Assembly: GCA_949358305.1 (NCBI GenBank)
Contig: OX442314.1
Span: forward strand, 18,035,060-18,099,059
Reading direction: 5' to 3'
Source: Strigamia acuminata
Taxonomy: Eukaryota; Arthropoda; Chilopoda; Geophilomorpha; Linotaeniidae
Length of the DNA stretch: 64,000 nucleotides
Position 1 is the stretch's first letter; each line of letters opens with the position of its first letter. Positions 4,301-57,257 of the stretch are shown in pieces. The notes under the pieces are model-generated. The model was not told the origin of the DNA, made no database searches, and saw only the letters and a list, made by a program, of their open reading frames with translations. The translations under genes and the position numbers were made by a program.

Positions 4301-6025
4301 TCATCAATTCCGAACGCGTCTTAATATAAAACTTCATTAAAACCCCATTACAATTTCATTGCTCTTCCTTTTACCTCAAATTGAAGCAACAAAAAAATCC
4401 CACACGCATACCCAAGTTCTCCCAGCAACACTCAAGTATTTTGTTTACTGTAACAAACAGCAATCGTATCCCAAATTGCGAATCATTCCTGCACCTGAAA
4501 AGAACATTAAAATGAGTTCTTTTCATTTATATTTAATGACTAATAAGCTAGGACGAGCTAAACTTATTTAAAAACCATGACAACTAAAGCCCTTTTAAAA
4601 CATAAACCGTTGTTTTACAATCTGAGTTGTATTAAAAAGTCGTCGTAACACTTGTTGTATTCCTCAAACGAGTCATTCGACTAACCGTTTCCTTTTTTTA
4701 ATACCACAAGAACTAGGATTCTTTACGATTGCAGCACACAATACAAAGTGAAGGCAATAACTTTTTTTTCTTTTTGAGATGTCTAGCAACCCCACAAAAT
4801 AAATGGTGGGTGTGGGTGAAGCATAGCCTGGCTTGTTTTCTGCTTGGTCGCCCTTCAATGTCTTCTTCTCCCCAAACTTTTTCGCTTGGTTAAAAGCAAT
4901 GATTGAAAACCAAAGAGTGAGAATTAGAGAGAACGGGAGAAGAGAAAAAAAAGTTAAGGTTCTTTTTGCTGACTTAAGCGATGGAAAAGCACTATTTTTA
5001 GTAAACTTTGTGACAAAAAGAAATGTGGTAAGCCACTAATTGAGTTTACTCTCCTTGCCACACTCCAGATGGGATAAAACGCATCAAAAATCATGTTAAG
5101 CATGTTTTGTTTGCCACGCGTTACGTTTTATACCAATTAAGAATTTGCTAACAAAACAAATCAGGATGGACATGCTTTCCAGCGATGCTTTTCTTTCCTC
5201 TTTATTTTTCTCCAAAGTTAGGCTCAAGGTAAACATTAAACAAATCAATAATTGAAACTTACATTTAAAATTTAAATTCAAATTTAGAAAAACGTCACTT
5301 CACTTCTCCACTTCCATTTCCTAAGTTGTCAAAACATGGTTTCTGCTTAAAGTTCACAGCCTTTGATTTTCAAAAATTGTGTCAGTTGAAATAAGTGTTT
5401 AAAAAAGATAACATTTTAATGGAAATCTGGGACATTCAATCTTGCTGACAATAAATGTCATTTCCTTTTTTCCATGCAAAAAAAGAAAGAAATATTTTTT
5501 TAAAATCTAAACAGACGTAAAATAAACATTTAGCAAACTGTGCACCATATTTTATTAAATATCTTTGCCTTCCTTTTAAAAGATTCATTGCTTAGTATTT
5601 AGTATTCACCGAATGTGTCAAGCTACAGACATCACTAAGACTTAGCTTATCACCACGCATGAGCAAATTTAATTGCAACCCAAATTTAAAAAGTGTCGCT
5701 TTAAAGTTTAAACCACACTCAGCTCAAACTGTTTAATCTTGAATCGGATGGACTCAACACCTAGAACTTTGACTCTACTAACTATCTATAACATCAATCC
5801 CATGATGCAATTAGTCAACAAAAAAAAGCAGCAGCAACTAGTTTTAATTATTAACTCAAGGCCGACTAAGATTACCGAATTCACTTGACATCACTATAAA
5901 TTTCCACCCGAATCTAAACACGAAAAGTAAAAGCTTAGCCATAATAGCACTCGCACATAAAGCACCTTATATTAAGTAAAATTAAATTTCTTTTAAATAT
6001 AAATTAACGAATGCTTTAGTGGACG

Positions 6026-41814: not shown

Positions 41815-44800
41815 ATGGCCACCAATCTGAATTTACCGACGGTTGGAAATTTCGACATTACAACTGGGAATTTGGACTATAGCTGGAAGAAATGGAGTAA
41901 GTCACTTCAATATTATTTGGAAGCGGCGAGAGTGGGCGAAGCACAGAAGTTGGCAACGCTGCTACACCTCGCCGGCACGGATGTACAGGACATCTATGAT
42001 ACGTTTACGCCGGCAAATAAACTGACATATGATCTAACACTCGCCGCGCTCGGTGTGTATTTCAATCCACGGAAAAATCTGAGATTTGAAAGGCACGTGT
42101 TTAGACAACAAACACAGGAGCCCGCCGAGGTAATGGACGCTTTTGTTACACGCTTGAAAACGAAGGTGAAAAGCTGCGAATTTGGCGTTTTAGAAGACGA
42201 TTTAATCGTCGATCAAGTGTTAGAGAAAGGCCGCGACAAGGGCTTGCGGCGGCGCTTGCTGCGCGAAACTGACTTGACTTTAGACTCTTTATTAAAGCTA
42301 GCTCGCTCAGCAGAGGCAAGTGAGCAGCACGCAACGTCGATGGAGCGAACGACGGCCGAAAACACCAAGGAGATCCTTGTAAACCAGCTCACGGGTGAGA
42401 AAAAGCCATTTTTTAAAAATCGTGGTAAAAGTGGGCGTGGCACATTTCGCAAATTCAACGCGAAACCGCAAAATTCGGACGACAGACGTTTCGATAAATC
42501 CCAAGTGGTGAAGGAATGCTATCGTTGTGGCCACAAGGATCATCTAGCAAATGATTGCACCGTTGCAAAGAACAAGGAGTGCGGGTTTTGTCACAAAATT
42601 GGACATTTTGCTAAAGTTTGCAGGTTGAAAAGCGCCGGAGGTCGTGCACGTGGCAAGGAGCGTGTCCAGTACGTCGGCGTGAACGAATACGACTACGACA
42701 GCGAGTATTCGTGCTGCGTGACGTCTCACGAACGGAATAATGGCGTGACGGTGAAGATCGATCAACAAGACGTAAGAGTTTTAATTGATTCTGGTTCATC
42801 GGTGAATACAGTGGGTCAAAAGGCATGGACATTATTAAAAAAGAAGGGAATTAAATTAACACCAACGAAGACAAGACTGTTTGCGTATGGAGTGAATGAG
42901 CCACTAGTAGTTAGCGGTGAATTTAATACGCAGGTGCAAGCGGCTGGAAAATCAGTAAATGCGAGATTTTTAGTCGTTCCATCAGGAAAAATGCCGTTGT
43001 TGTCTCGAAAAACATCCAAAGAGCTGGGATTGTTGAAAATTGATGAAGAAATTGCAAATGAACTTACTAATGATGATTCTTTATTCGATGAGTCTTTAGG
43101 AAAATTGAGGAAGGACTTGGCCAATCGAATTACAAAATTTCGAGATGTTTTTAAAGGGATTGGAAAACTCAAGGAGTTTGAACTGGAATTGTATATGGAC
43201 GCGAACGTGCGACCAGTTGCGCAATCGGTGCGCAGAATACCTTTCCACATCCGCAAACAGCTGGACATCGAAATAGATAATTTGTTGCAGGCCGACATCA
43301 TCGAGCCAGTCACCGGCGCGACGGAGTGGGTTTCACCCGTCGTGCCCGTGAAAAAGCCGGATGGCTCAATCAGGCTGTGCCTTGACATGCGTGCCGTCAA
43401 TGAGGCGGTGAAGAGGAACCGCCATCCGCTCCCCACGATGGAGGAGGTTTTGGATGAAATTGACGGTGCGGAGTTAATTTCAAAACTCGATTGTCGCCAG
43501 GGATATTTACAAATCCCTCTCAAAGCGGATTCGAGGCGGTTTACTGTTTTTGTCACTCACAGGGGACTTTTCCGCTACAAGAGACTGTTCTTTGGGATCG
43601 CCAGCGCACCCGAGGAGTATCAACGGATTCTCCAGAACATCTTGGCCGAGTGCGAGGGGACGAAGAATTCTCTTGACGACATCGTCGTGCACGGGAAAAC
43701 AGTCGAAGAACACGATCAACGTCTGGAAAAAGTTCTCGAAACACTTTCTCGAAATGGATTGACTTTGAACTTGAAAAAGTGCTGTTTTGGCGTGTCGAAA
43801 GTCACGTTTCTTGGACATGTGATTTCAAAAAGTGGCATTTCCGTCGCGGAATCAAAAGTCGAAGCGGTGCGGAATGCAGTTGCGCCAAAGAACGAGACGG
43901 AAATCCGAAGTTTCTTGGGCCTAATCAATTATTGTGCTCGGTATATTCCGAACTTCGCGACTGAAGCGGAGCCATTACGATTGATGGCCAGGAAGGACGT
44001 CACTTTTGAATGGGGGAAACGTCAGAACGACGCATTTGAAAAATTGAAAGAACTTTTATGTAGCTCGGACGTTTTGGCATTTTTCCGAAAAAATGTCGAA
44101 ACCGAATTAATCGTCGACGCGTCGCCGGTCGGTCTTGGCGCCGTCCTCACTCAGCGTCAACCGGACAACCAGATGAAACCAATTGCGTTCGCCAGCCGAA
44201 CGTTGTCAGACGTTGAACGACGATATTCTCAGACTGAGAAAGAAGGGCTCGCAGTCGTCTGGGGCTGTGAGCGCTTCAGAATGTATTTAATCGGCATGCC
44301 ATTTCTTTTAATAACAGACCACAAGGCGCTGGAGACCATCTACGGGACCAGATCGAAGCCGTCAGCAAGGATGGAAAGATGGGTGCTGAGATTGCAGCCA
44401 TTCGAATTCACGATTCGTCACCGGCCGGGCAGCGCGAACATAGCGGACGCGCTGTCTCGTTTGCTGCCCGCCGGAGAAGGGAAAAGTGTTCTGGGACGAA
44501 CAGAAGCTTATGTGCGATTTGTGGTCGAGAGTGCGCTGCCGAGGGCAATGACTTTGCGAGAAGTCGAACAGGCGTCGAGAGCAGACGAAACTATTTGCGA
44601 AATCAATAAGTGTTTGCGCGACGGAAACAAATTTAATAACGCTCTTCAAAAATTTCAGCTGATAAGGAGCGAATTAGCGATGACAAACGGAGTTTTGCTT
44701 CGAGGACCACGAATTGTGATGCCGGAGTCACTGCGGAGGAGAGTGGTCGAATTGGGACACCAAGGTCACCAGGGCGTCGTAAGAACGAAGCAACGCCTGC

Positions 44801-45921
44801 GTGAAAAGGTCTGGTGGCCTGGCCTGGACCACGACGTCGAGCGTGCAGTGCAGCGATGCCACGCTTGTCAGCACAGCAGTGCGACGGAGAAGCCGGAACC
44901 AATTCGGAGCACGCCGCTGCCAAAAGGACCATGGCGGGAGCTGGCGATCGATATTTGCGGTCCATTCAAGGACGGCAATTCGATTGTCGTTCTCGTCGAT
45001 TATTACTCGCGTTTTCCGGAGGTACTAATTTTGAAGTCGACAGTGTCGGAAAGGATAATTGTTTGGCTGCGTCGAGTTTTCGAGCGCTGGGGAATTCCGG
45101 AGTCGTTGACTTCGGATAATGGGCCCCAATTCGTCTCGGAGCAGTTTCGGGTTTTTCTGGAGGAGCAGGGAGTCCACCATCGTAGGGTCACTCCATACTG
45201 GCCCCAGGCCAACGGAACTGTTGAGAGACTGAATAAGTCTTTTGTCAAAGCTTTTCGGGCCGCGGAAGTCGAAGGCGGCAACTGGAAAAAGGCACTCGGG
45301 ACATTTTTACAATCGTACAGGAGTACGCCACACCGTACCACAGGAGTGTCGCCGTACGAACTAATGACGAAGAGGAAAATGCGAACAAAGATTCCGCAAA
45401 TGATGTTGGAAGAAAAAGGAAAATTACATCAAATTGTAAAAAGGAAAGATGCGGAGGAAAAGGAAAAATCGAAGCGGTATGCAGATCAGCGTCGCGGGAG
45501 CAGGGAAAGCGACATCCAGCGGGGCGACAGAGTGCTGGTTGCGAAGTCAAGAACACACAAGCTCGATCTTGCATACGAGCACGATTTAATGACGGTATTT
45601 CAAAAGAATGGGAATTGTTTGCTGTTGAAAACAAACGACGGCAGAATCGTCAAAAGGAACGTGACGAAAGTGAGGCGATACTTCCCATTAGATGATGACT
45701 TACCGTTACCCAATGATGACAACATTCCAGTAGAGGCGATTCCAGGTCAGCCGAGACCAGATGCCCATTTGCTGCCTGGGCCACCAGTGAGAGGCGGTAG
45801 ACGGGGAGCAAGACGTGCGGCCGACCCTAATTTCCAGCCGAGGAAGTCTGATCGTAAAAGAAGGGCACCGGAATACCTGGGCGGTTACGACACGTCTACA
45901 CGTCGTAGAAGAGTTGTGTAA
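41815..45921 (+). CDS. Gag-Pol polyprotein, Ty3/gypsy type
   Basis: 1,368 residues in one frame. Gag carries two zinc knuckles near residues 235 and 256 (CYRCGHKDHLANDC, CGFCHKIGHFAKVC). The protease motif LIDSGSSVNTV is near 323. Reverse transcriptase includes KLDCRQGYLQIPL near 556 and the catalytic segment SLDDIVVHG near 619, where the family norm has Tyr in the position of Ser. RNase H begins near 766 (IVDASPVGLGAVL). Integrase has the HHCC finger (about 980-1020) and the D, D, E residues within DICGPF, TSDNGPQF and ANGTVERLN. No chromodomain or envelope gene is seen. The likely role is retrotransposition of its own element and perhaps of non-autonomous relatives. Confidence 0.93.
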   Translation: MATNLNLPTVGNFDITTGNLDYSWKKWSKSLQYYLEAARVGEAQKLATLLHLAGTDVQDIYDTFTPANKLTYDLTLAALGVYFNPRKNLRFERHVFRQQTQEPAEVMDAFVTRLKTKVKSCEFGVLEDDLIVDQVLEKGRDKGLRRRLLRETDLTLDSLLKLARSAEASEQHATSMERTTAENTKEILVNQLTGEKKPFFKNRGKSGRGTFRKFNAKPQNSDDRRFDKSQVVKECYRCGHKDHLANDCTVAKNKECGFCHKIGHFAKVCRLKSAGGRARGKERVQYVGVNEYDYDSEYSCCVTSHERNNGVTVKIDQQDVRVLIDSGSSVNTVGQKAWTLLKKKGIKLTPTKTRLFAYGVNEPLVVSGEFNTQVQAAGKSVNARFLVVPSGKMPLLSRKTSKELGLLKIDEEIANELTNDDSLFDESLGKLRKDLANRITKFRDVFKGIGKLKEFELELYMDANVRPVAQSVRRIPFHIRKQLDIEIDNLLQADIIEPVTGATEWVSPVVPVKKPDGSIRLCLDMRAVNEAVKRNRHPLPTMEEVLDEIDGAELISKLDCRQGYLQIPLKADSRRFTVFVTHRGLFRYKRLFFGIASAPEEYQRILQNILAECEGTKNSLDDIVVHGKTVEEHDQRLEKVLETLSRNGLTLNLKKCCFGVSKVTFLGHVISKSGISVAESKVEAVRNAVAPKNETEIRSFLGLINYCARYIPNFATEAEPLRLMARKDVTFEWGKRQNDAFEKLKELLCSSDVLAFFRKNVETELIVDASPVGLGAVLTQRQPDNQMKPIAFASRTLSDVERRYSQTEKEGLAVVWGCERFRMYLIGMPFLLITDHKALETIYGTRSKPSARMERWVLRLQPFEFTIRHRPGSANIADALSRLLPAGEGKSVLGRTEAYVRFVVESALPRAMTLREVEQASRADETICEINKCLRDGNKFNNALQKFQLIRSELAMTNGVLLRGPRIVMPESLRRRVVELGHQGHQGVVRTKQRLREKVWWPGLDHDVERAVQRCHACQHSSATEKPEPIRSTPLPKGPWRELAIDICGPFKDGNSIVVLVDYYSRFPEVLILKSTVSERIIVWLRRVFERWGIPESLTSDNGPQFVSEQFRVFLEEQGVHHRRVTPYWPQANGTVERLNKSFVKAFRAAEVEGGNWKKALGTFLQSYRSTPHRTTGVSPYELMTKRKMRTKIPQMMLEEKGKLHQIVKRKDAEEKEKSKRYADQRRGSRESDIQRGDRVLVAKSRTHKLDLAYEHDLMTVFQKNGNCLLLKTNDGRIVKRNVTKVRRYFPLDDDLPLPNDDNIPVEAIPGQPRPDAHLLPGPPVRGGRRGARRAADPNFQPRKSDRKRRAPEYLGGYDTSTRRRRVV

Positions 45922-46113: not shown

Positions 46114-46282
46114 TGTGGTATCTTGATATGTATCTGCGCCACTAGATGGCGCTACGCGCGGTGACACCTGGCGCCGGTGTTTACCTGCGTTAATGAATGA
46201 GAATAAAACTTCAGTTTACAATTAGTGCATCAACTCATACAAACGTGTCCTTTATTGTGTCTATAGAATCGAGGATACGACA
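46114..46282 (+). repeat. 3' LTR of gypsy element
   Basis: Identical by eye to the 5' LTR; preceded by an A-rich purine tract ending AAAGAGTGA. Confidence 0.93.
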
Positions 46283-46287
46283 AAAAT

Positions 46288-46910
46288 GATACACTTTTTA
46301 CTTTTTTAAGTGCATTTAATTCATCAAGTTTTAAAATGAACTTGTTTGTAAGTGTTTGACAATTATTAATAGTTAAATGTTCTAAATTCTGACTTTGTGC
46401 AATTAACATTATCAGTTCTGATTCTGTAGTAATACTATATTCATCCGCACGTATGTGTAGTCCACTCAAGTTTCGAAAATAAAAATGTTTAGATAAATCA
46501 TCACGTACTTTTTCAGTATTCAAAATAGTACAATACTCTAAGAATAAATTTTGTAACAATGGACAATAGTTATCGATAAGCCTAAGATTAACTAACGTAA
46601 AATCATACAGTGTTAGTGTGGTCAATCGTTGTGTCCGTGCCAAGACAATATTTAAATCGGGACTACTCAATGCATCTAACGTTAAACTTGATAAATAGGG
46701 AAAAATTGTGGTCATAATGATGATATCTTCGGTATTATTTCCATTGAAATATATTTGTTTGATGGAATAAGTACGCAACGTTTTCTCTGATTTGAACTGA
46801 TATTTTAACAGATCAAACAGACTTTCCCACCAATCGTGTTCAAACGTTTTTAAAAGAGGCAGTTGGTTTAGAATGAACAAACATTTCTCGGGTGTGACAG
46901 TCGTATTAAC
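46288..46910 (-). pseudogene. LRR gene, middle part
   Basis: About 208 codons of leucine-rich-repeat-like sequence on the minus strand (for example LTLYDFTLVNLRLIDNYCPL). It lies between the fold-back element (46911) and the gypsy element (46282). The frame stays open at both ends into the insertions. It joins the N-terminal part through the shared sequence TCGTATTAAC (46901-46910 and 55879-55888). Confidence 0.75.
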
Positions 46911-47157
46911 GGAAAAGCAGCAGTCTGTCGACAGTCTATCTGTCGACAGGCTATCTGTCGACAAAATATTCCCCACAGCATTCTGTCGACAGTCATTCTG
47001 TCGACACAATGTCCTGCCCAAGCAATCCCTCGACAGTCTATCTGTCGACACACGCCAGACAAGCATTCTGTCGACAACAGCTTAACGGCTTAACGACCAC
47101 CTGTGGTCAGCCTGGGGCCTCACCTGAAATGGAGACTTTAACCCTCTCAGCCCTAAT
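46911..47157 (+). repeat. Left terminal inverted repeat, tandem TGTCGACA units
   Basis: About eight units of 14-15 bp around CTGTCGACAG (46921-47075) are followed by a unique block including CCACCTGTGGTCAGCCTG (47098). The block reappears inverted at the right end, with similar but not identical sequence. Confidence 0.85.
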
Positions 47158-47217
47158 TTTGATCTAAAAATGGGTTTTTATTTTTATTTAATTCGTTGTT
47201 TTATTCTTTTTTTCTAG

Positions 47218-47922
47218 AAGTGGCTAAATTGAGTCTGGAATCACCGCGAATTTGGCGAAAAAACGGTTGAAAAATGAATCAAATTCCGATAAAAACGTTG
47301 AATTTTGTAATTAATTTTGTAATTTCAGGCTCGCCCATGGAGAAATCACGTGTACATGTTTGTCAAGACCAAAAGAATTACAAACCACGACAGATAAGTA
47401 AGTTTGTCGGTGTTTTTAAATAAATATTTCTATATAAAAAAACGAATTTTCTTCGGTTTAGAGAAATTCAGGATTTAGTGAACAAACAAAATACACTCGT
47501 GGCGAAATTACTAGCGAAAAAGCCGAATGTGATGCAATAAAAGAGCTCTGGTTCCTTCTCCAGCAAGATAGCTACAAGTTAAGAAACGAGAAAATGCAAC
47601 TGGTATGTGAAATAGAAGAACTCAAAGAGGAACTGGAGTCCCCGCGGCCGAAATCGGCATTTAGCGACTCGGACCCGTCAAAACAGTAAAATAATCTTTA
47701 TTAGTTGATCGATAATTAATAATTACATCAAGTTAAAAAAAAAATTATTTTCTTTCTTTCAGATTGGACGACGTGGTTTTTAAGAACTTGAAATTGGCGA
47801 ATACCCTGCGAATCGTTTTCCAAAAACTCGTCGTTGGCAGTGGAATAAATTGGGCCGCCGACGACAAATTGATGCATTTGGTACTCGAGTTGGGACGAAA
47901 CGCAAACATAGAAAACAAATAA
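47218..47922 (+). pseudogene. CENP-H-like gene fragment
   Basis: Likely exons 47218-47265 (weak), 47329-47397, 47472-47685 and 47763-47922 on the plus strand join in frame across GT-AG introns and end at TAA. The product has a coiled coil (IKELWFLLQQ...EIEELKEELE) and a C-terminus LVVGSGINWAADDKLMHLVL. That C-terminus resembles the end of CENP-H, an inner-kinetochore (CCAN) subunit. Only about 160 residues are present against about 240 in vertebrates, and the 5' part is cut off near the transposon terminal repeat. It ends tail to tail with the UBA6-like fragment, 29 bp away. Confidence 0.5.
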
Positions 47923-47951
47923 AAAAAATACTTTTCTTTATTTCATTCAAA

Positions 47952-48252
47952 TTATTTCAAGTAATATCGTATCGGGGTTCCCATGATGTCGTCGCCCGAC
48001 TCCGGATTTTCAAACGCAACGGATAAATCAGTGAAACTTTTATGTAGTTTTTTTTAAAAAAGTGTGTTTAATTTGAATAAAATTGAATAAAATTGATTTT
48101 TTTCTTCATTTTTAATTACGTGTGAGCGAATCGTTTCTCGTATCCGGGCATTATCAGCAAATACACGATGAGTTTTCCATCGACGATCATCGACACTTGT
48201 AAACCCGTTTTGGCCACCAATTGGTCGATCAACTGCTTTAAAGTGAAGTAAA
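47952..48252 (-). pseudogene. UBA6-like E1 enzyme, last two exons
   Basis: Minus-strand exons about 48252-48120 and 48036-47952 join in frame across GTAATT...AAG. The first encodes FTLKQLIDQLVAKTGLQ and LLIMPGYEKR; the second encodes LSVAFENPESGDDIMGTPIR and ends YYLK-stop. This matches the C-terminal ubiquitin-fold domain of UBA6, the E1 for ubiquitin and FAT10, more closely than UBA1 (compare the vertebrate ending PPVRYYF). UBA6 has about 1,050 residues, so over 90% is missing. Beyond 48260 the sequence changes to a degenerate AT-rich repeat. Confidence 0.7.
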
Positions 48253-48269
48253 TTCATGGCGAATATGTT

Positions 48270-48441
48270 AACTTTTTTTTTTTCTTTAATTCAAAAATGT
48301 TTTAAATTTGCTTTAAGTTGAGCAAAATTGATCAAAATATTGTCAAATTTTGTCTAAAACTATCAAAAGTTATTTAAATTGTGTCAAAAAATATTCAAAT
48401 TATGTCAAATTTTGACAATTTCCGTCAAAAACTATTCAAAT
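48270..48441. repeat. Degenerate repeat flanking the TG...CA insertion (left)
   Basis: Irregular repeats of words such as GTCAAATTTTGACAATTT and TCAAAA. The same pattern resumes at 50594 beyond the inserted element, so the two belong to one stretch, apparently the truncated cytospin intron. Confidence 0.6.
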
Positions 48442-50593
48442 TGTGACGAGACGACCTCGAAGCGCCATACCCCCGACTGGTGGGATGTTGGCCAACTACG
48501 GGACTTACATTCCTTACCACAATAAAGAATATCTAATAATCATATGACTATCTTGTATGGAAAGCGCTAATCACCTGACTATCAAGTACACCACCGAATA
48601 ATCATCTGACTATTCGCATAAGCACATATAAATGGCATATAAATGGACTCGTTCCATGGCCATGGTGCAGCTCTCTAATTCATTAACAAGATTGATTATT
48701 TGAGACAGGCATTCTACTCCAACCCTTCGGTCACCACATTACAGACAGGAAAAAGAAGGAATCTATCGCCGATTTTCCTCCCTTCAGTGACGTCACCCCT
48801 GCCCAAGAGACGCCTCCCCGTCTAGCCATGCCAGATGTCCTGCTGTGAGAGAGAGAAGTATTTGGTCACGCCCCCAATTTAAAGGGCGAGTTAAAGACCA
48901 GTTAACCCGTCTAGCACACTGTTATGACTGGTTACATAACAGTTGTGCTTCCCTGGTGTTATTTAGTGGCCCTACCTTTGGGTATTTAAGGGCTCACACC
49001 AGTTTATTCACCCCCCTTGTTGCATACACTTTGAAATTGACCTTACACATTATATTGCTTGAAACCTTATGGTGAATACAATTTATGTTGTGCGTCAATT
49101 CATTGACGCACAGGCAAGCGTTAGTTGTTTGGCCCTACGCGCAACGGCACAAGACAAAGACGAGTAAACTAGCACTTTGTCTAACCGTAAAGACTCGTCT
49201 GGTTAGGACCCATGGCGAGTCAGGATGGCCATGGAGGAGAGATGGTTTTGTTGCCGGCATCTGATCGTTTCTGCCCTGGAGACGCCCAGAGAACTTCCCA
49301 CCAAGGTAAACCCGTTCCTTTTTACTATGCTTTGTGATGACACAGTTCACTCTGGTCACTTAGCTATTCTCTCTCACCGCTCCTTATGTACCGTGGTGCC
49401 TAAGCCTCTGCTGGCCATGTGTGTTACACCTTGCTGATATTTCCGGTTGTGCGATAAGACTACTCACAATGACTCAGTTCGCTGGTTGTGAGTCCGCCTC
49501 AAACTCAGCATAAGGTGTTTAACTAGTTTCGACTGGCCTTTTGCGTGGCGGTTAGTTTTATCTCTCCCGTCTCTAACTCCTTTTCCGGCGTTCGCCGACT
49601 ATTCCGTGCCACCAAGGGTGCCTAAGTTCGTCTGGCCCTTGTGTGTAATTCTTCACCCCACGGTGTAATAAGCTCACCTTGTTGAGCAACGTGGGATTGC
49701 TTTTACTCTTCAATTAATAATATTTACCTAGCTTGCCTTTCTGATCTGGACCAAGTGGTCAGAAAGGGTTGTTTGTGACGGACCCAGTATCACAAAGAAC
49801 CACTCATGCAATCAACTCAACATAATTGCCATATGATGAAATATGGTATCCATTCCGCATTACTGATCTGTGTAGTTAAATACCCGATATGTCATGTTTA
49901 GTTATGCAACTGGAAGCGTTGCTAATCCTGTCAGCGTAAATGTGACCATTGTTGTCACCTACGATTGTTTAGATTGGCGTGTTATACTCACGCCTGTTTG
50001 TGCTTAATCCTGTCAGCGTAACTTCATTTAGTGTTATATAAATTTACTATAGAGTGTTTAGTCACTCTACAGAGAGTCACGTTTAGATCCTGTCCATGCG
50101 CTTGAAATACTTTGATATTCTTGTTTTTGTGCTTATTAATATTAGGCCTAGATTGACCATCAATAAATGGTAAATTGTCATGTTTTGATAAATCTGTTGT
50201 GTTTGCTCATTCCAATATATTTAGTTCGTATCATCAATCTATTAATTGTTTTCATGCTGTTGCTATTTAATTGTCTAGTTATATTGTTACGAAGTCAGAT
50301 CCCTTTATCTTATTTTATTACTTGAATTTCAATGAGGCCGACAAGAGTGAAGAACTTCACAGTTCTCCCCTCTTGTGGCGACGCAGACATTCCTCTCAAG
50401 GTCGGAGCCTTGGAGAGTTTCTATGGATGGCCATCTGCACCTTTCTATGGCACTCCATTTGGATGGAGTAGATCCTGTCGCCATCTTTCTTTCTACAGTA
50501 GTTCATGTGAACTATGGGAGACTAATGCTAGTCCCCGGATGTAGAGTAATAATGGTCGTGGTATATATTGATAAGCTAGGTTTTCCCGTCACA
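48442..50593. mobile_element. 2.15-kb TG...CA repeat, possible solo LTR
   Basis: Begins TGTGACG and ends CGTCACA, with AAAT on both sides (48438-48441, 50594-50597). The flanks are otherwise continuous. No long reading frame with a known domain is inside. Two internal TGTGACGGACC/GTATCAC-like words occur near 49770. TG...CA ends with a 4-bp duplication fit a long solo LTR, but a terminal-inverted-repeat DNA element is not excluded. It is nested inside the fold-back element's cargo. Confidence 0.5.
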
Positions 50594-50842
50594 AAATTAT
50601 GTCAAATTTTGACAATTTCTGTCAAAATCCATCAATAATTTATCAAAAATTATTCAATCTCTGTCAAATTCCATCAAAATTTATCAAAAGTTATTCAAAT
50701 TCCGTCGAAATTTATCATCAATTTATCAAATTTCATCAAAAACTTCGTCACATTTCTCTAAATTCCGAAAATATTGATCAAAAAAATTCCAAAATTTCTC
50801 AAAACACATTAATAACTCATAATTACACCACCGTAAAATCAC
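50594..50842. repeat. Degenerate TCAAAAxTTAT repeat (right part)
   Basis: Continuation of the low-complexity stretch at 48270-48441, made of irregular copies of ATCAAAATTTATCAAA. It follows the last recognisable cytospin exon on the minus strand. Confidence 0.6.
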
Positions 50843-51654
50843 CTTCAATTCCTCTTCAATATCAACCATCGCATCTTTCAACCTGGTCGTTTCAAATTGA
50901 CTAAAAGCAAGTTGCTCTGACAAAACAGCTGCGTGTGATTCTAAATCATCTTTTTCTTTTCGTGCGTTGTCAAGGAGTTCGTCCAATTCACTTTTATCGA
51001 CAATCTCCCGTGCCTGGTTGAGCTCCGACACCTACAACAATCAAAAATTAAACAAAAAACCCAAAAATTCCTCTAATCTAAACCAAAAAACCAAAAAAAA
51101 AACCTTAATTCTCTCATTCTCCAACTGAGTTTTTGTCCTGGACACTTCAATCTTCAAATTATCGAGCTTTTCCCGACTTTCGGTCGATTTGTTTCGCCAA
51201 CATCCGTTTAGCGGTGTTTGCGCTCTCGATATTTAACTGTGAATTCAGCGTTTCCTTCTCATCTCTGGAAGTCTGAAAAGTGTGAATAAATAAATGTTAG
51301 TGAAAGATTTATTTGATTTGTTTTGGTATTTTACTTTTAATAGTTCGAGTAACTTTGCATCTCGGTCGCAGGACGAGAGTTGGGAGTTGTTGAAAAGCAA
51401 TTGCCTCAAATTATCGTTTTCGACGCGACAATCCTCGAGTTTTTCTGTTCGACTGCAAAGGGATTCCAACAAAACAGTTTTTCCTTCAGCCAGATGCTCG
51501 TTTTCCGCTTGCAATTCCGTCAGCTGATCTTGCAGATCTGTTAATTCCTGAAGAGTTGCCTGAAGTTCCTCGTTTGTACTAAAATTCAATCAAAATGCAT
51601 TAAATTCAATAAATCTCAGTAAAAATTCTATAAAATTCAGTCAAAACTGAAAAA

Positions 51655-51720
51655 ATCAGTAGAAATGATGAAAAAATCAGTAGAAATGATGAAAAAATCA
51701 GTAGAAATGATGAAAAAATC
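51655..51720. repeat. Short tandem repeat, about 20-bp unit
   Basis: About three copies of AAAAAATCAGTAGAAATGAT inside a cytospin intron. Confidence 0.8.
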
Positions 51721-51796
51721 ACTCAAATTCCGATTAATTATTCAATATTAATGCAATAAAATGCCATATAAAGCCATATAATGCAATAAAATAGAG

Positions 51797-51935
51797 CCAA
51801 AATTCAATGAAATTCAGTCAAAATTCAATGAAATTCAGTCAAAATTCAATGAAATTCAGTCAAAATTCAATGAAATTCAGTCAAAATTCAATGAAATTCA
51901 GTCAAAATTCAATGAAATTCAGTCACAATTCAATG
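51797..51935. repeat. Tandem repeat, 21-bp unit
   Basis: About six near-identical copies of CAAAATTCAATGAAATTCAGT in a cytospin intron. Because 21 is a multiple of 3, it opens a repetitive frame (51807-52007) that is not a gene. Confidence 0.9.
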
Positions 51936-53028
51936 CAATTCCATCAAAATTTAATACAATTCCATCAGAACCAATCAATTTCCATAAATTCCAAACAAAT
52001 TCATTAACACCAAGTGTTGGGCGTTGTACGCGGTACCGTACGGGCTTACCAGTGTTTATTACTTTCAAAACGAATAAAAACAATCAAAATCAAAACCAAA
52101 AATCACCTGTAATGTGTTTCCTCCATTTGCAATATGCGATCTTGCAAACAAGCGACAGACATTTCGCTAATGCTGCTGTTACTTTGTTTGTCCCAGTCGC
52201 ACGATGGCAAAATGCACTCCAATGTTTCAGCCAGATCTTCAGCTGTTGAATCGCATTTTGCACTCTGATTGCGCATGCCGGCCTAAACCAAATCCAAAAC
52301 AAACAAAAATAATAATCAAAACCAATTTTTCCCCTAAAAATTGCCACTAACTAACATCAGAAAAATCTGGATGGCTGGAACTATTCCCAGCTTGAAGAAG
52401 CATTTGCTTTTCGTCGTCCGAAAATGCTTCGGGATTTATCAACATCCCAAACTTCAAATCATTCGTCAGATACTTGGAATCGTACGCCAAACCCGATTCA
52501 TCTTCTTCCTAATGATTCACGACAACAAATTAACATTTTTAAACGTTTTTTAAACGTTATTTTAACGTTTTTACCCTGTATTTCTTCAAATCGAGCTTGA
52601 GTTGCGCGATTTCCGTCGTTTTTGCTTCCAGGTTGTGGATCAGTTCGGACAATTGTTTCTCCACGTTGTTAGATTGACTTAGGCTTACTTTCTCTCCATC
52701 CCGTGCTTGTCTCCCGTCCATTTCTATTTTTTTCTAAACGATTTGAACAAATTAAACGCAAAATTCAATGAAATTTTCATTGTTTTTTTTTTAATATTAC
52801 CGGGTACCGACCTTTTTGTTTCGAATTTCAAATTACGTTTCCATCACTGCGCATTTTTTTGAACACAAAAACCGCATTGAACATGAAATAACCGTTGTAA
52901 TCTGACATATGGGAATGTTGATAGATGAGCGCCACGCACCTCCCATTTGTCCCAAATACTGAAAATTATTCCGTCTCTGAATTTTAAAATGATTTAAATG
53001 AATTTGTTTTGGGATTTTGCGATTTCTT

Positions 53029-53935
53029 TTACCGGAGTTTCACGGGATTTATTTGACACGGTTGAGACGAGACGAAAAGTGGCAGTGCGAGGTTGATAAA
53101 ATAATTCTGGTGGCGCTCCCGCTGGAAATTACTCGCGAATTCAATCACTTCCAACGTTACCTGCAAGAGAATGTAATTTAAAATCGATCTTTTTTGATTA
53201 CCGTAGTTGTGTGTTTAGTACCAATCTGGTGACGACAGACGTTGTTGTTATTGTAACGGTAATAATTTTCTCGTCGATTTTTCTTATTGCGGCCGTGTCG
53301 GCCGTCTTGATTTCGTACATTTCGGCTCGTTAGTTCTGAAATGGTTGGTATCTGTATGGGGCGTAATGAGTGCATTTTTATGTTTTTTGATATTGCTTAC
53401 TGTGGTACAAAATATAAAGTTTTTGTAAACGTTTTCTTTTCTTGCTCCTGTTGGATTCATCAATATATCGTCGGGGATTTTGATTCCCGCATTTAAGACC
53501 TTTTCGATTTCGTTTGCACATTTGACTGGATCGTCGGCTGCGACTGAAATTTCCACACAGGAAATTTGGGTTGATGGCGCAATTGAAGCATAAACAAACA
53601 TCCACCATTAATCGACAAATCAGAACTCTAAAACAAAAAATTTGTACATTCATTTGAAATATTTGAATACTTTTTAAAAAATTCGATTTTTTTCACTTAC
53701 CAAAACAATTCTCTCTCGCTCCAGAGTGAAATTTCCTGTCATCGTATCGTACCTGGCACTTGAAACATTTTTTGCTCTCAATATCTCGCGTGCTAATAAA
53801 GTGTTCGAATCGTTCCTACAAACAAGAGAACAATACTAAACTTGTTTGTTTGCATTTCGACCACAGGATTTGAAATCACAAGTCTATGTTTGGCTCTAGT
53901 TAATGCCACGTACAGAATGTTGCTTTCGTCGCCAT
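53029..53935 (-). pseudogene. FBH1-type UvrD helicase, 3' fragment
   Basis: Candidate minus-strand exons 53935-53862, 53815-53701, 53625-53401, 53335-53202 and 53160-53029. The first encodes SNILYVALTRAKHRLVIS, the conserved end of UvrD-family helicases (motif VI), closest to FBH1, an F-box helicase that disrupts RAD51 filaments. The following exons encode a Cys cluster (KCFKCQ, then CLCFNCAINP) like the zinc-binding tail of FBH1. The helicase core and F-box are absent. Some junctions are weak, and the last two exons are uncertain. The end lies 300 bp upstream of the cytospin start on the same strand. Confidence 0.55.
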
Positions 53936-53972
53936 CTAACCAGGATTAAAAAACTAGTTGAGTTTTCAAATT

Positions 53973-54110
53973 TGTAAAAATCTACTGGTCACTCAAAAGA
54001 GGTCAAAAGGGGGGTAAGTTTTAACCCCTCACATTCCGTTTACCATGTGACCAAAGGGTCAGTAAACTTGCCCTTTTGACCTCTTTTGAGTGAGCAGTAG
54101 GTTTTCACAA
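53973..54110. mobile_element. Small MITE
   Basis: Inverted repeats of about 45 bp containing ACTCAAAAGAGGTCAAAAGG (left, about 53990) and its complement (right, about 54070) enclose a short spacer. No coding capacity. It sits within or next to a helicase intron. Confidence 0.6.
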
Positions 54111-54163
54111 GTCATCTAAAAAAAAATGATATATTTCAATTTTATTTTTTATTTTTTAAATAC

Positions 54164-54268
54164 GTGCAACGACACGTATTTAGCATTAAAACATTCCACC
54201 ATTACTCTTGATGCTAGATCCAATAACTTCTGAGCTAAACCTAGTCGTCTGTGTGATCTTTTCACTGC
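54164..54268 (-). pseudogene. NAA10 (ARD1) single exon
   Basis: One minus-strand exon of 105 bp with AG and GT boundaries encodes [20 protein letters not shown] and then [12 protein letters not shown]. This is nearly the human N-alpha-acetyltransferase 10 sequence, including the acetyl-CoA-binding R-R-x-G-L-A loop. NAA10 is the catalytic subunit of the NatA N-terminal acetyltransferase on ribosomes. No neighbouring NAA10 exon is present on either side, so it is an isolated gene fragment. Confidence 0.8.
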
Positions 54269-54394
54269 CTAACATTAGTAGTACATAACAAATATTTTTT
54301 TTAAACGATTTTATATGAAAAATCAAAATTCGTCCGTGCTTCTCGTGTTACAAGTGCGCATGTTTATCTCAGGGATGTCAATTTGACGTTTTAC

Positions 54395-54625
54395 TTTACA
54401 ATACAATTGATGTTTTTACTACTCTCTTAAGGTAAAAATAAGAGAAAAACGTCAAATTTACCTTAAATATGAAGTAAAAACGTCGATTTTACTGTAAATA
54501 TAAATTAAAAATGTCGATTTTACTGTAAATTTGAAGTCAACACGTCGATTTTAAGGAAAATATAAAGCCAAAACGTCAGATTTGCAGTATAAAATGCCTT
54601 AAAGATCATTTTTACAGTAATTTGT
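54395..54625. repeat. Degenerate tandem repeat, about 38-bp unit
   Basis: Five or so irregular copies of a unit like AAAACGTCGATTTTACTGTA followed by an AATATGAAGT-like block. Non-coding. Confidence 0.65.
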
Positions 54626-54961
54626 TCGTTTTTTTTTAATTTTAATTAAACTAGAATTAGCTATTTCACTGCGTCGCCATCTATCGGCAGAATAAAAAGC
54701 TCAAAAACAAGCTCGAAATTCAAATTTAGTAAACTAAAAACGTGAAAAAATATTTGATTGGAAACGCAAAATGTGTTCAGAAGTGCTGTATAAAATTGAG
54801 TTATAAAATTGAGTCATTTTACATCTTGTCAACCGATTTATTCAAAAACATAGAAATAAACCTATACAAACATTCCAAATTAAAACAATTATATTCAATA
54901 ATATGACAATTACAAAAAACGTGGGAATGTAACAGCGATAAATACAAGTAGTTCATGTATT

Positions 54962-55224
54962 TTACAACCACGGATGCCACGCCGGATCCATGCGACACAA
55001 ATTGTCCTGGCAATTTGCCGCAGCCACCAACGTGCTCACCTTGCTCTCGGCGCCGTTGAATGTGGCGAGATCTAAAAAATTCAATTTATTTTAATCAGTG
55101 AATGTCGAAAAACTAAACTATTTCCAATTTTCTCACTTTGCAGACGCGCCATAATTGCATTGCATTTACGGCTTTATTCACCTTTCATATTCAGCGTTTG
55201 CACACTTGAAACGTCTTCTTGTTT
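54962..55224 (-). pseudogene. TRRAP, last two exons (FATC end)
   Basis: Minus-strand exons 55224-55182 and 55071-54962 join in frame and end NLCRMDPAWHPWL-stop. This is the very C-terminus (FATC domain) of TRRAP, the pseudokinase scaffold of SAGA and NuA4/TIP60 histone acetyltransferases; the stretch NGAESKVSTLVAAAN is also typical. TRRAP has about 3,800 residues, so almost all of the gene is missing. The sequence upstream gives way to AT-rich DNA and then the transposon terminal repeat at 55627. Confidence 0.85.
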
Positions 55225-55626
55225 CTGAAAATCAACAAAAATTACATTAAAATTCAAAAAAATATATTTAAATTTTTTTCTTTTTTTTTTACTTTTCGCT
55301 TTTTACTAACAAAAATATTCAATCCATTATTTATTTCACATTGAATTTCTCAAGTTCCGCTGAGCGAGTGTGCCTAAAATTGACTTAAGGTACGAAAAAA
55401 TGTATCATTTTCGTAAAATAACTCATTTTTACATGCAAAATTGACATGGAAATTAAGCAATATTCATTTTTAGCACGCTTGCAAAAGTTTGAAATTGATC
55501 TTTTTGTGTAAAAATGTGTTATTACGTGCAAAAAATCGTGAAAAAAAATAAGTAAGCTGTAAAAATCGAGTCAAAATATTTAAAAACAGTAAAAATAGTG
55601 TATAATAATGGTCAAAATTAATCTGA

Positions 55627-55878
55627 GGTTGGGGCAGGGAGAGTTAAAGCCCCCATTTCAGGTGGAGGCCTCAGGCTGACCACAGGTGGTCTTTAAGCCC
55701 TTGTCGACAGAATGCTTGTCTGGCGTGTGTCGACAGATAGACTGTCGAGACAATGCCTGGCACAGGTGTCGAGGGATAGACTGTCGATAGATTGCCTGTC
55801 GACAGATTGCCTGTCGACAGATTGCCTGTCGACAGATTGCCTTGTCGACGGATAGACTGTCGATAGACTGCTACCCCA
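55627..55878 (-). repeat. Right terminal inverted repeat, tandem TGTCGACA units
   Basis: Inverted counterpart of 46911-47157: a unique block with CAGGCTGACCACAGGTGG (55672) comes first, then about ten units around CTGTCGACAG, some mutated to GTCGATAG or GTCGAGGG, ending CTGCTACCCCA at 55878. Confidence 0.85.
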
Positions 55879-55888
55879 TCGTATTAAC

Positions 55889-56446
55889 GCGGAGCTCCAA
55901 ATACTCCAGTTTCTCGCAACTTTTTAATGAACAAAGCCCATCATCAGTAATATTTTTGCATTTTAGTAACTCTAAACGTCGTAATTGAAGACAATTTTTA
56001 CCTATTGCAGCTAGAACTTCATCCGTGCATTCTTCACTTCTCGACCAATTGAACCATTCAAGTTGTGGCAATTGCTGCAGAAGTGTGATCATATATTCAG
56101 GTGGAATTTTCACATCAACTAAATAATTCAGGTCCAATCGCAGAAGGTTTCTACACAATTCTCCTATTCTATTTAATACAGAAGGATACACTGGCAGGCA
56201 AAACCAATCTAAATGTTGAAGCGATTTGGTGCCAGAATGAATGAAAACATTTGAATCCAAGCGTGGACGAGGACCAAGTGAAATTGGTCTTGGCTTACAC
56301 AGACGTTGATATACATTGGAAACGAATACCGAAGGTTGTGTCATCAGTTGTGTTTGTAAAACATCGAAATTAGAAAAAATCTTTTGCAAACACATTTGCT
56401 CGAGATTCGCTGCTGACTTCCTGCGAGGCATGTTGCTAACTATCAC
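55889..56446 (-). pseudogene. LRR gene, N-terminal part
   Basis: 186 codons from the ATG at 56446 (an in-frame alternative, MPRRKS, is five codons in). An N-terminal helical region (LEQMCLQKIFSNFDVLQTQL) is followed by leucine-rich repeats of the AMN1/F-box type (for example ITDDGLCSLKSCEKLEYLEL). No clear F-box is seen. The frame runs into the fold-back element after residue 186 and stops five codons later. The family is thus LRR, substrate-receptor-like; specific function unknown. Confidence 0.8.
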
Positions 56447-57257
56447 AAGAGATGAATTAAATTCAAAATGAGATGGGGGTGTGTATATACGTGGATAAGG
56501 ATTAGGGGTTACGGAAACAGGACGTGTGTCGCACGGATGACGAAAACGAACTAACTGTAGCGTGAACGTGCACCGACACTATTCAGAAGTGAATTTTTAA
56601 AATTTTGATATTTTTTTTTTTTAAATTGATTGTTCTTTTCTATTGACTTCCCACGTATGAGAATCACGTACGTCTCTTTTTTACACTTGCCGACGAAATA
56701 AACGTTAAAAACAGCCTACTTTGGTTGTTTTTATTGCAATTTATCTCCGTTTTTGTTCGCTTTCTAATCTTTTTATTTCTTTGTCAGTTTGTTCATATTG
56801 TATTTCATTTTTTTCCGTTTATTCATGTTTTATTTCAATTATGCGCGTTTTTATTTTTTTTTAGATGTCGCACACTGGAGAAAAGATCAGGAAATTCTAG
56901 AATAATCTTGTTACAATACAACATAAATTAAAGTCCTTTTCAAACATTTTTATTCATAACGAAAACTTTAAAAAATTCCAACAGCGTCATGCGAAATCAC
57001 CGTGGTCGAAAATATGGGAACTATGTTGAAGCGACTATACTGTATAAAAAGCCCAAGCCGCGTGTTTGCTTATGTATTCCAATTCCGTATTTTGTCACCA
57101 AATGGCGCTAAGAACAAATAGGCCATGAAAACGCATTAACACACAGGGTGACAGCGGTAACTTTTTTTATACATAAAATGAGGTTCTGGACTTTACTCAT
57201 TTTTCATCTGTATAATCATCCGATACATAGGCGGGCTAACTAGTTTATTTGTTTATG
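56447..57257. other. LRR gene upstream region and AT-rich DNA
   Basis: Contains the presumed promoter of the disrupted LRR gene. No other gene recognised; the frame at 56725-56931 is Phe-rich translated AT DNA. Confidence 0.45.

Follow-up and report, generated by a model that had tools for sequence, protein, structure and literature searches.

The window analysed here, a stretch of 64,000 nucleotides on contig OX442314.1 (C1) of the centipede Strigamia acuminata, contains at positions 46911-55880 an element of 8,970 bp whose ends are inverted repeats of some 250 bp each and whose interior is filled with pieces of host genes. We read it as a non-autonomous Pack-type transposon with terminal inverted repeats (TIRs) of a foldback-like, tandem-repeat build, which acquired its cargo by gene capture at the DNA level in several steps and was most likely moved by a Mutator-like element (MULE) of the Phantom/Tm1 type. 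To this reading we assign a probability of roughly 85%. The cargo comprises DNA-level pieces of CENP-H and UBA6, which are neighbours, and of cytospin-A, FBH1, NAA10 and TRRAP; fuller copies of these genes are found elsewhere, at five loci spread over five contigs. Inverted-repeat termini with a target duplication, parental genes elsewhere and the lack of any transposase found within are together what marks a Pack-type TIR element, and the window copy shows all of them. Bare coordinates refer to the window; C3, C8, C12 and so on are other contigs of the same assembly (237.5 Mb in 157 contigs), which was searched for copies, donors and transposases.

Copies, target duplications and an empty site

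Five complete elements carry these ends: the window copy and those at C3:35612009-35618807, C13:7301893-7315193, C8:4273844-4278904 and C12:348191-455776. All five are flanked by a perfect 8-bp duplication that differs by locus (GTATTAAC in the window; ATGCTTGT, AATTGAAT, GATTTTTA and CGGGCGCC at the others). The window copy interrupts a gene with leucine-rich repeats (LRR) on the minus strand, whose 3' portion lies at 46233-46910 and whose 5' portion lies at 55889-56578, and joining the flanks restores a single LRR frame of 456 amino acids. When 423 nt of the joined flanks were used as a query, 40 of 105 candidates were scored; these comprise both halves of the interrupted site and 38 paralogues, every one of which (38/38) crosses the junction without an insert. 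An initial annotation of this DNA had inferred a single mobile unit, and this is borne out by the recurrence of these ends at five loci, each with a duplication of its own, by the empty paralogous sites and by the restored frame. It had also suggested looking in the same genome for other copies, of which the four further complete elements are examples, and for copies with different cargo, of which the C8 element is one: it combines the family ends and a TRRAP part with another middle.

Could the arrangement nevertheless be a one-off complex rearrangement or a segmental duplication bounded by inverted repeats, with no transposon involved? Complex repair could in itself produce such an order of pieces, whose donors are spread over five contigs, but the recurrence of the same ends at five loci with different perfect 8-bp duplications, together with the clean empty site, refutes this idea, which we regard as vanishingly improbable. 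Paralogues of the target LRR gene occupy at least 38 places, distributed over several contigs.

The copies differ in age and in what has happened to them since. Those on C1 and C3 show 4 mismatches in 6,799 aligned bases and those on C3 and C13 show 16 in 6,769; for C1 and C13, the BLAST pieces give 5, 6 and 9 mismatches, while a count of 32 includes misalignment around a nested long terminal repeat (LTR) and is not used. As three near-identical copies sit on three contigs, the mosaic is not a chance arrangement. A Ty1/copia element whose 558-bp LTRs are identical sits in the C13 copy and was added later, since the sibling copies lack it. On C12, the same cargo is present at 1.1-1.8% substitution in six segments, one of them aligned in part only, within an element that has been swollen to 107.6 kb by about 100 kb of other sequence and has retained its perfect 8-bp duplication. 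This is an older, broken copy. The alternative that it is a giant original was considered and rejected, as its cargo is cut mostly at overlaps of 2-10 bp, as by later insertions. One small stretch of cargo is missing from it, and one of its cuts (overlap 4335-4339) is common to the cytospin-A donor; because the C12 copy and the donor share it, this cut is a loss in the remaining copies.

The ends themselves are of a distinctive build. Each terminal repeat consists of an outer motif, followed by 15-bp tandem units around TGTCGACA and a shared block of about 70 bp, and the two arms are 78% alike over about 245 bp. The outer motifs are asymmetric, with GGAAAAG at the left end and CTACCCCATC at the right. 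The left repeat (plus strand) spans 46911-47156, with the terminus GGAAAAGCAGCAG and the shared block at 47084-47156, and the right repeat (minus strand) spans 55629-55880 and ends in CTGCTACCCCATC; its counterparts in the C3 and C13 copies are 15 bp shorter. The initial annotation had described such repeats of about 250 bp, made of tandem units and a shared block, and they are present where it placed them. A ten-base sequence, TCGTATTAAC, had been noted at both ends as well. It is indeed there, but as a 10-bp duplication it does not hold: it is made up of GTATTAAC and TC, and of these two parts the former alone, found at 46903-46910 and identically at 55881-55888, constitutes the target duplication. 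At the right end, TC is element sequence, as all four sibling copies have TC as their last two bases, ahead of 8-bp duplications that are different and their own.

Cargo and donor genes

Five captures, here called A to E, account for the cargo. Capture A derives from C5:7907493-7909189 and is in two parts: the first, at 47238-48249 (plus strand), holds CENP-H exons on the plus strand and part of a UBA6 exon on the minus strand (donor C5:7909189-7908130, 91.1% identity over 1,060 columns), and the second, at 52930-53556 (minus strand), holds the rest of that exon along with adjoining sequence of UBA6 (donor C5:7908123-7907493, 92.5%). Between these parts lies capture B from the cytospin-A locus at C1:29178108-29181003, on the minus strand. 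It starts inside the UBA6 exon at 48250-48441 (donor from C1:29181003 downward) and continues at 50594-52929 with exons, introns and minisatellites (donor C1:29180699-29178108, 88-92%). The other three captures are also on the minus strand. Capture C, the last part of the FBH1 helicase, lies at 53562-53966 (donor C12:5604310-5604752, read from the higher coordinate down, 86.4% with gaps). Capture D, an NAA10 exon and an intron with 31-bp repeats, lies at 54162-54650 (donor locus C3:11725085-11725827, with the captured piece corresponding to C3:11725820-11725085, 82-86%). Capture E derives from TRRAP at C4:17010892-17014306 and joins the 3' end of the gene with its FATC domain, at 54752-55298 (donor C4:17014306-17013732, 86.9%), to an earlier segment at 55297-55537 (donor C4:17011128-17010892, 90.0%). 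Since introns are included, the captures came from DNA.

The gene names rest on comparison of element peptides with Pfam and with PDB sequences, and on donor exons. In Pfam, CENP-H is matched at an E-value of 7e-14, the domains E1_UFD, GNAT and FATC score above their cut-offs and UvrD_C_2, in the FBH1 piece, scores just below its own. NAA10 and TRRAP were identified by PDB sequence from element peptides; UBA6, FBH1 and cytospin-A were identified from donor exons. The cytospin donor exons received no name from PDB or NCBIfam, and a further search gave cytospin-A proteins as their relatives. All donor loci hold more of the gene past the captured piece, be it UBA6, cytospin-A, FBH1, NAA10 or, for TRRAP, the kinase domain. 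At the C3 donor, Pfam recognizes neither of the two short NAA10 exons; the first of them, which lies upstream, is confirmed by PDB sequence. Eight places in the genome match the NAA10 peptide, seven in copies or relatives of the element and one in the C3 gene. Two other candidate donors were rejected: C1:40858534, considered for NAA10, which is a broken relative inside a retroelement, and C9:2673131, where FBH1 is only a fragment within another mosaic. The six gene names proposed from the letters alone (CENP-H-like, UBA6-like, cytospin, FBH1-type, NAA10 and TRRAP) have thus each been tested by Pfam, PDB or donor-exon comparison and stand, and the five donor loci with their fuller genes confirm that the cargo is made of host gene pieces.

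Is the cargo kept because it yields a useful chimeric RNA or protein? The whole mosaic has recently been amplified, and a proportion of Pack-TIRs is transcribed, according to a survey of animal genomes (PMC8277862). However, a 1-bp frameshift in CENP-H is common to the C1, C3, C13 and C12 copies, so the cargo no longer coded for CENP-H before it spread. The UBA6 exon is split and the identified gene pieces are partial, which makes such a benefit very unlikely.

Junctions and the order of capture

How did the pieces enter? The UBA6 exon is continuous in its donor and split in the element by the cytospin block. At the UBA6/cytospin junctions, 6 bp of UBA6 are lost, a GT is shared as 2-bp microhomology on one side and there is no duplication; the block has no terminal repeats of its own. 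Along the same lines, the two pieces from TRRAP overlap by 2 bp where they join, with 2.6 kb of the gene left out between them, and captures A and C are separated by five bases. Judged from their sequence, such junctions look like what repair with template switching leaves, and unlike transposon insertion. An alternative to repair-type copying from host genes is that each piece arrived by its own transposon insertion or was passed from one element to another. Modules do recur in other mosaics (NAA10 with its TRRAP flank at C12:7948827 and C12:451272, a bit of FBH1 at C9:2673131), and the C8 element has a replaced middle. The cytospin block within UBA6, with 6 bp lost and neither terminal repeats nor a duplication, argues against this alternative, which we consider unlikely.

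Divergence from the donors, counted outside tandem repeats only, is graded: 34/1,434 positions for B (2.4%), 16/394 for C (4.1%), 78/1,626 for A (4.8%), 17/261 for D (6.5%) and 66/775 for E (8.5%). In pairwise Fisher tests, A differs from B (p=3e-4) and from E (p=5e-4), and B differs from E (p=1e-10). This gradation suggests stepwise capture, with some steps inseparable, and the nesting of B within A agrees with it. A relative at C12:7086627-7087736, in which both TRRAP pieces are joined beside a family end, is 8.3% from the window copy and lies about 8-9% from both that copy and the TRRAP gene. Pieces A-D found no match within the 4.1 kb examined there, and the relative agrees with an order in which E came first. 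The C8 element, with E but without A-C, was also considered as an early stage and was rejected: its TRRAP part is 3.0% (15/508) from the window copy, a split that postdates captures A, C and D, which means that the C8 element must have lost its middle or had it replaced.

From these observations a course of events can be proposed. Host segments would have been copied in by break repair or by fork template switching that reached other loci. The TRRAP and NAA10 pieces were probably captured first; the CENP-H/UBA6 segment and the FBH1 end may have followed, and the cytospin segment would have been placed inside the UBA6 exon last. The finished mosaic, moved in trans most likely by a Mutator-like transposase (MULE, Phantom/Tm1-type), then transposed to at least four sites, early to C12 and recently to C1, C3 and C13. 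The window copy broke the LRR gene and later received its LTR. What is shown comprises the mobile unit, its insertion, the donors, the nesting and the graded divergence; the class of transposase, the mode of repair and the complete capture order are proposed.

Which transposase moves the element?

The initial annotation saw no transposase in the cargo, and this agrees with our searches: a genome-wide search for the MULE family (150 of 169 candidates scored) placed none inside the element, and a Pfam scan of 18 element peptides gave no transposase hit, other transposase families not having been searched genome-wide. The genome is rich in MULEs, with at least 118 matches, many of them with open frames. 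Left-type ends of the family occur 34 times, and a reversed control pattern does not occur at all. Two of the 34, at C1:48420602 and C13:1580707, have a MULE match inward of the end and less than 10 kb away (4.5 and 5.7 kb, respectively), compared with 0.21 expected at random for 148 MULE places. At the former, the MULE domain spans C1:48420515-48420931 (Pfam E-value 9e-12), and no exact duplication was seen in the stretch examined. The proximity of MULEs to these two ends is suggestive at most. Single ends at C4, C10, C9, C6, C1:8.7 Mb and C13 were followed into the interior sequence without meeting a bounded element with a transposase, and the 97 matches of a MULE relative of one neighbour yielded none either. 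The copy with a Mutator/FB-type transposase that the initial annotation hoped for did not turn up among the MULE matches and family ends.

The 8-bp duplication falls within the range of 8-11 bp given for MULEs (PMC6446971). By analogy with Tm1, discussed below, we infer that a MULE would be the likeliest class, short of proof of Mutator/FB membership. The same Pack transposon could instead be moved by another superfamily with 8-bp duplications, either hAT or the P/Galileo group, in which termini can be long and repetitive. To our knowledge, the duplication seen at 5/5 elements fits hAT and P as well as MULE; Galileo is Foldback-like and yet classed with P, and no MULE was found between these ends. 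The termini GGWAAAG.../...CTACCCCATC, on the other hand, do not have the starts we take to be usual for hAT (CAG) or P (CA), and the asymmetric outer motifs and 14-15-bp tandem units fit Tm1, which is described as a Phantom MULE. Another superfamily therefore appears rather improbable, if less so than the alternatives weighed above.

Several observations count against the combined picture of a MULE-moved element with stepwise capture. No transposase was found between these termini by the MULE and end-pattern searches, hAT, P and other 8-bp families not having been searched, and no second end or bounded element was found at C1:48420602 or C13:1580707 in the stretches examined. The capture order is deduced from how far each piece has diverged from a single donor; at p<0.05, C is inseparable from A (p=0.6), B (p=0.08) and D (p=0.2), and D is inseparable from A (p=0.23) and E (p=0.36). 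The C8 element is without A-D, though its E piece split off after A, C and D had been captured. Finally, 53557-53561, the five bases between A and C, and other gaps have no assigned source.

Comparison with known elements

The closest likeness is to Tm1, a Mutator/Foldback family of root-knot nematodes (PMC3169594), a likeness of motifs judged by eye and not a test of descent. Both have asymmetric outer motifs (CGGTTAA / CCTACCC in Tm1, GGWAAAG / CTACCCCATC here), variable tandem units of 13-15 bp (CGATTCAGTATCCGC in Tm1, TGTCGACAGTCTATC here) and an inner conserved motif, and the duplications are of 8-10 bp, mostly 9 in Tm1 and 8 here. The centipede element thus has the foldback layout of the Phantom/Tm1 type, in which the outer motifs are asymmetric and the tandem units, of 14-15 bp, are variable. 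Tm1 members hold a histone-hairpin motif, nothing recognizable (in the manner of miniature inverted-repeat transposable elements) or, in one kind, a Phantom-type transposase (PMC3169594), whereas here there is a multi-gene cargo and no transposase was found.

Among arthropods, Muta1 of Aedes aegypti and its derivatives are MULEs with 8- or 9-bp duplications, and about 20% of the derivatives have internal sequence that can be aligned to host genes (PMC5225508). They differ in that the example given carries one fragment of 276 bp and an active autonomous copy is known (PMC5225508). Muta1 has been grouped with Phantom (PMC6446971). Spectre MULEs share the 8-bp duplication and arthropod hosts, but have simple termini of 74-76 bp and a transposase, and tandem units are not mentioned in the accessible part of their description (PMC6446971). 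A 2026 survey of arthropod MULEs mentions the capture of host genes as one way in which large elements may arise (PMC13359780). Another gene carrier is the Pack-TIR Ssk-FB4 of Drosophila, which is multicopy and has repetitive FB-type termini, duplications that differ per copy and 2-bp microhomology at a breakpoint (PMC8277862). It carries one nearly complete gene between termini of about 700 bp and has duplications of 9-10 bp (PMC8277862), whereas the 8-bp duplication and termini of about 250 bp set the present element apart from Drosophila FB4. In the same survey, 370 Pack-TIRs from 100 animal genomes included no Pack-MULE in the reference genomes and four that are multicopy, Ssk-FB4 being found in fly populations (PMC8277862).

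Rice Pack-MULEs are likewise non-autonomous TIR elements with duplicated gene pieces, in a plant host. Chimeras from multiple sources exist among them. We know of no rice Pack-MULE whose termini contain tandem 15-bp units. About a third are multicopy (PMC8277862).

A possible record of layered capture

That an arthropod-like element with so many fragments is unusual, as first supposed, stands in part. Pack elements are already known in plants and arthropods, the latter in print as Muta1 derivatives and Ssk-FB4; the layering of several donors is the new part. Our searches of the open PMC literature turned up no animal element with layered, multicopy capture from several donors (here at least six genes from five loci). 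The centipede element extends the capture of several genes to an animal transposon whose tandem-repeat ends are Tm1-like. It is unsettled how TIR transposons acquire genes, with gap filling set against fork switching followed by transposition (PMC8277862). Here, one genome holds the donors, the nested junctions, an early relative with TRRAP only, older and young copies and the empty site, so that order, junction type and timing become directly readable.

More broadly, the foldback-ended family might consist of accreting gene shufflers that layer host segments, replace middles, trade modules and amplify the finished mosaic, a tentative idea to which we give somewhat less than even odds. The modules that could be cited as traded are the NAA10/TRRAP flank, the FBH1 end and the middle shared between C8 and C9. 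If true, one element would document, with dates, a succession of captures at several donor loci.

Nested insertions, other mosaics and neighbouring features

Within capture B, a nested LTR of 2,152 bp (TGTGACG...CGTCACA, with a duplicated AAAT) occupies 48442-50593, about a quarter of the element length, and had been overlooked in the initial annotation. It was inserted later, because the sibling copies on C3 and C13 lack it. Its relatives at C3:6145233 and C3:6161655 are 96% identical, and it is probably a solo LTR. Between the FBH1 and NAA10 pieces, a near-perfect palindrome at 53972-54110, with 40-bp arms and 59 bp between them, is partly shared with the C8 element.

A second repeated mosaic with an NAA10 exon occurs at C12:7947300-7951000 and C12:450300-453300, of which the latter is enclosed by the two ends of the 107-kb element on C12 and contains a fragment that we take to resemble SYF1/XAB2. 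Parts of the C8 middle recur at C9:2672000-2674600 near the FBH1 fragment, and these shared parts may reflect module exchange between mosaics. At C1:8707475-8707798, an end of the wider family consists of about 19 near-perfect 15-bp units in tandem and is satellite-like. An intact Gypsy-type polyprotein frame of 1,368 amino acids, its type judged by eye, adjoins the window copy at 41815-45921. A transporter encoded elsewhere in the window has its nearest relatives among arthropod proteins: of the 120 entries listed from 5,486 hits, nearly all that bear a name come from arthropods and one comes from a nematode, the best named entry standing at about 61%. Two open frames at C13:1576040-1577707, close to an end of the family and to a MULE fragment, presumably resemble 38K-like and BRO-like proteins, as found in nuclear arthropod DNA viruses.

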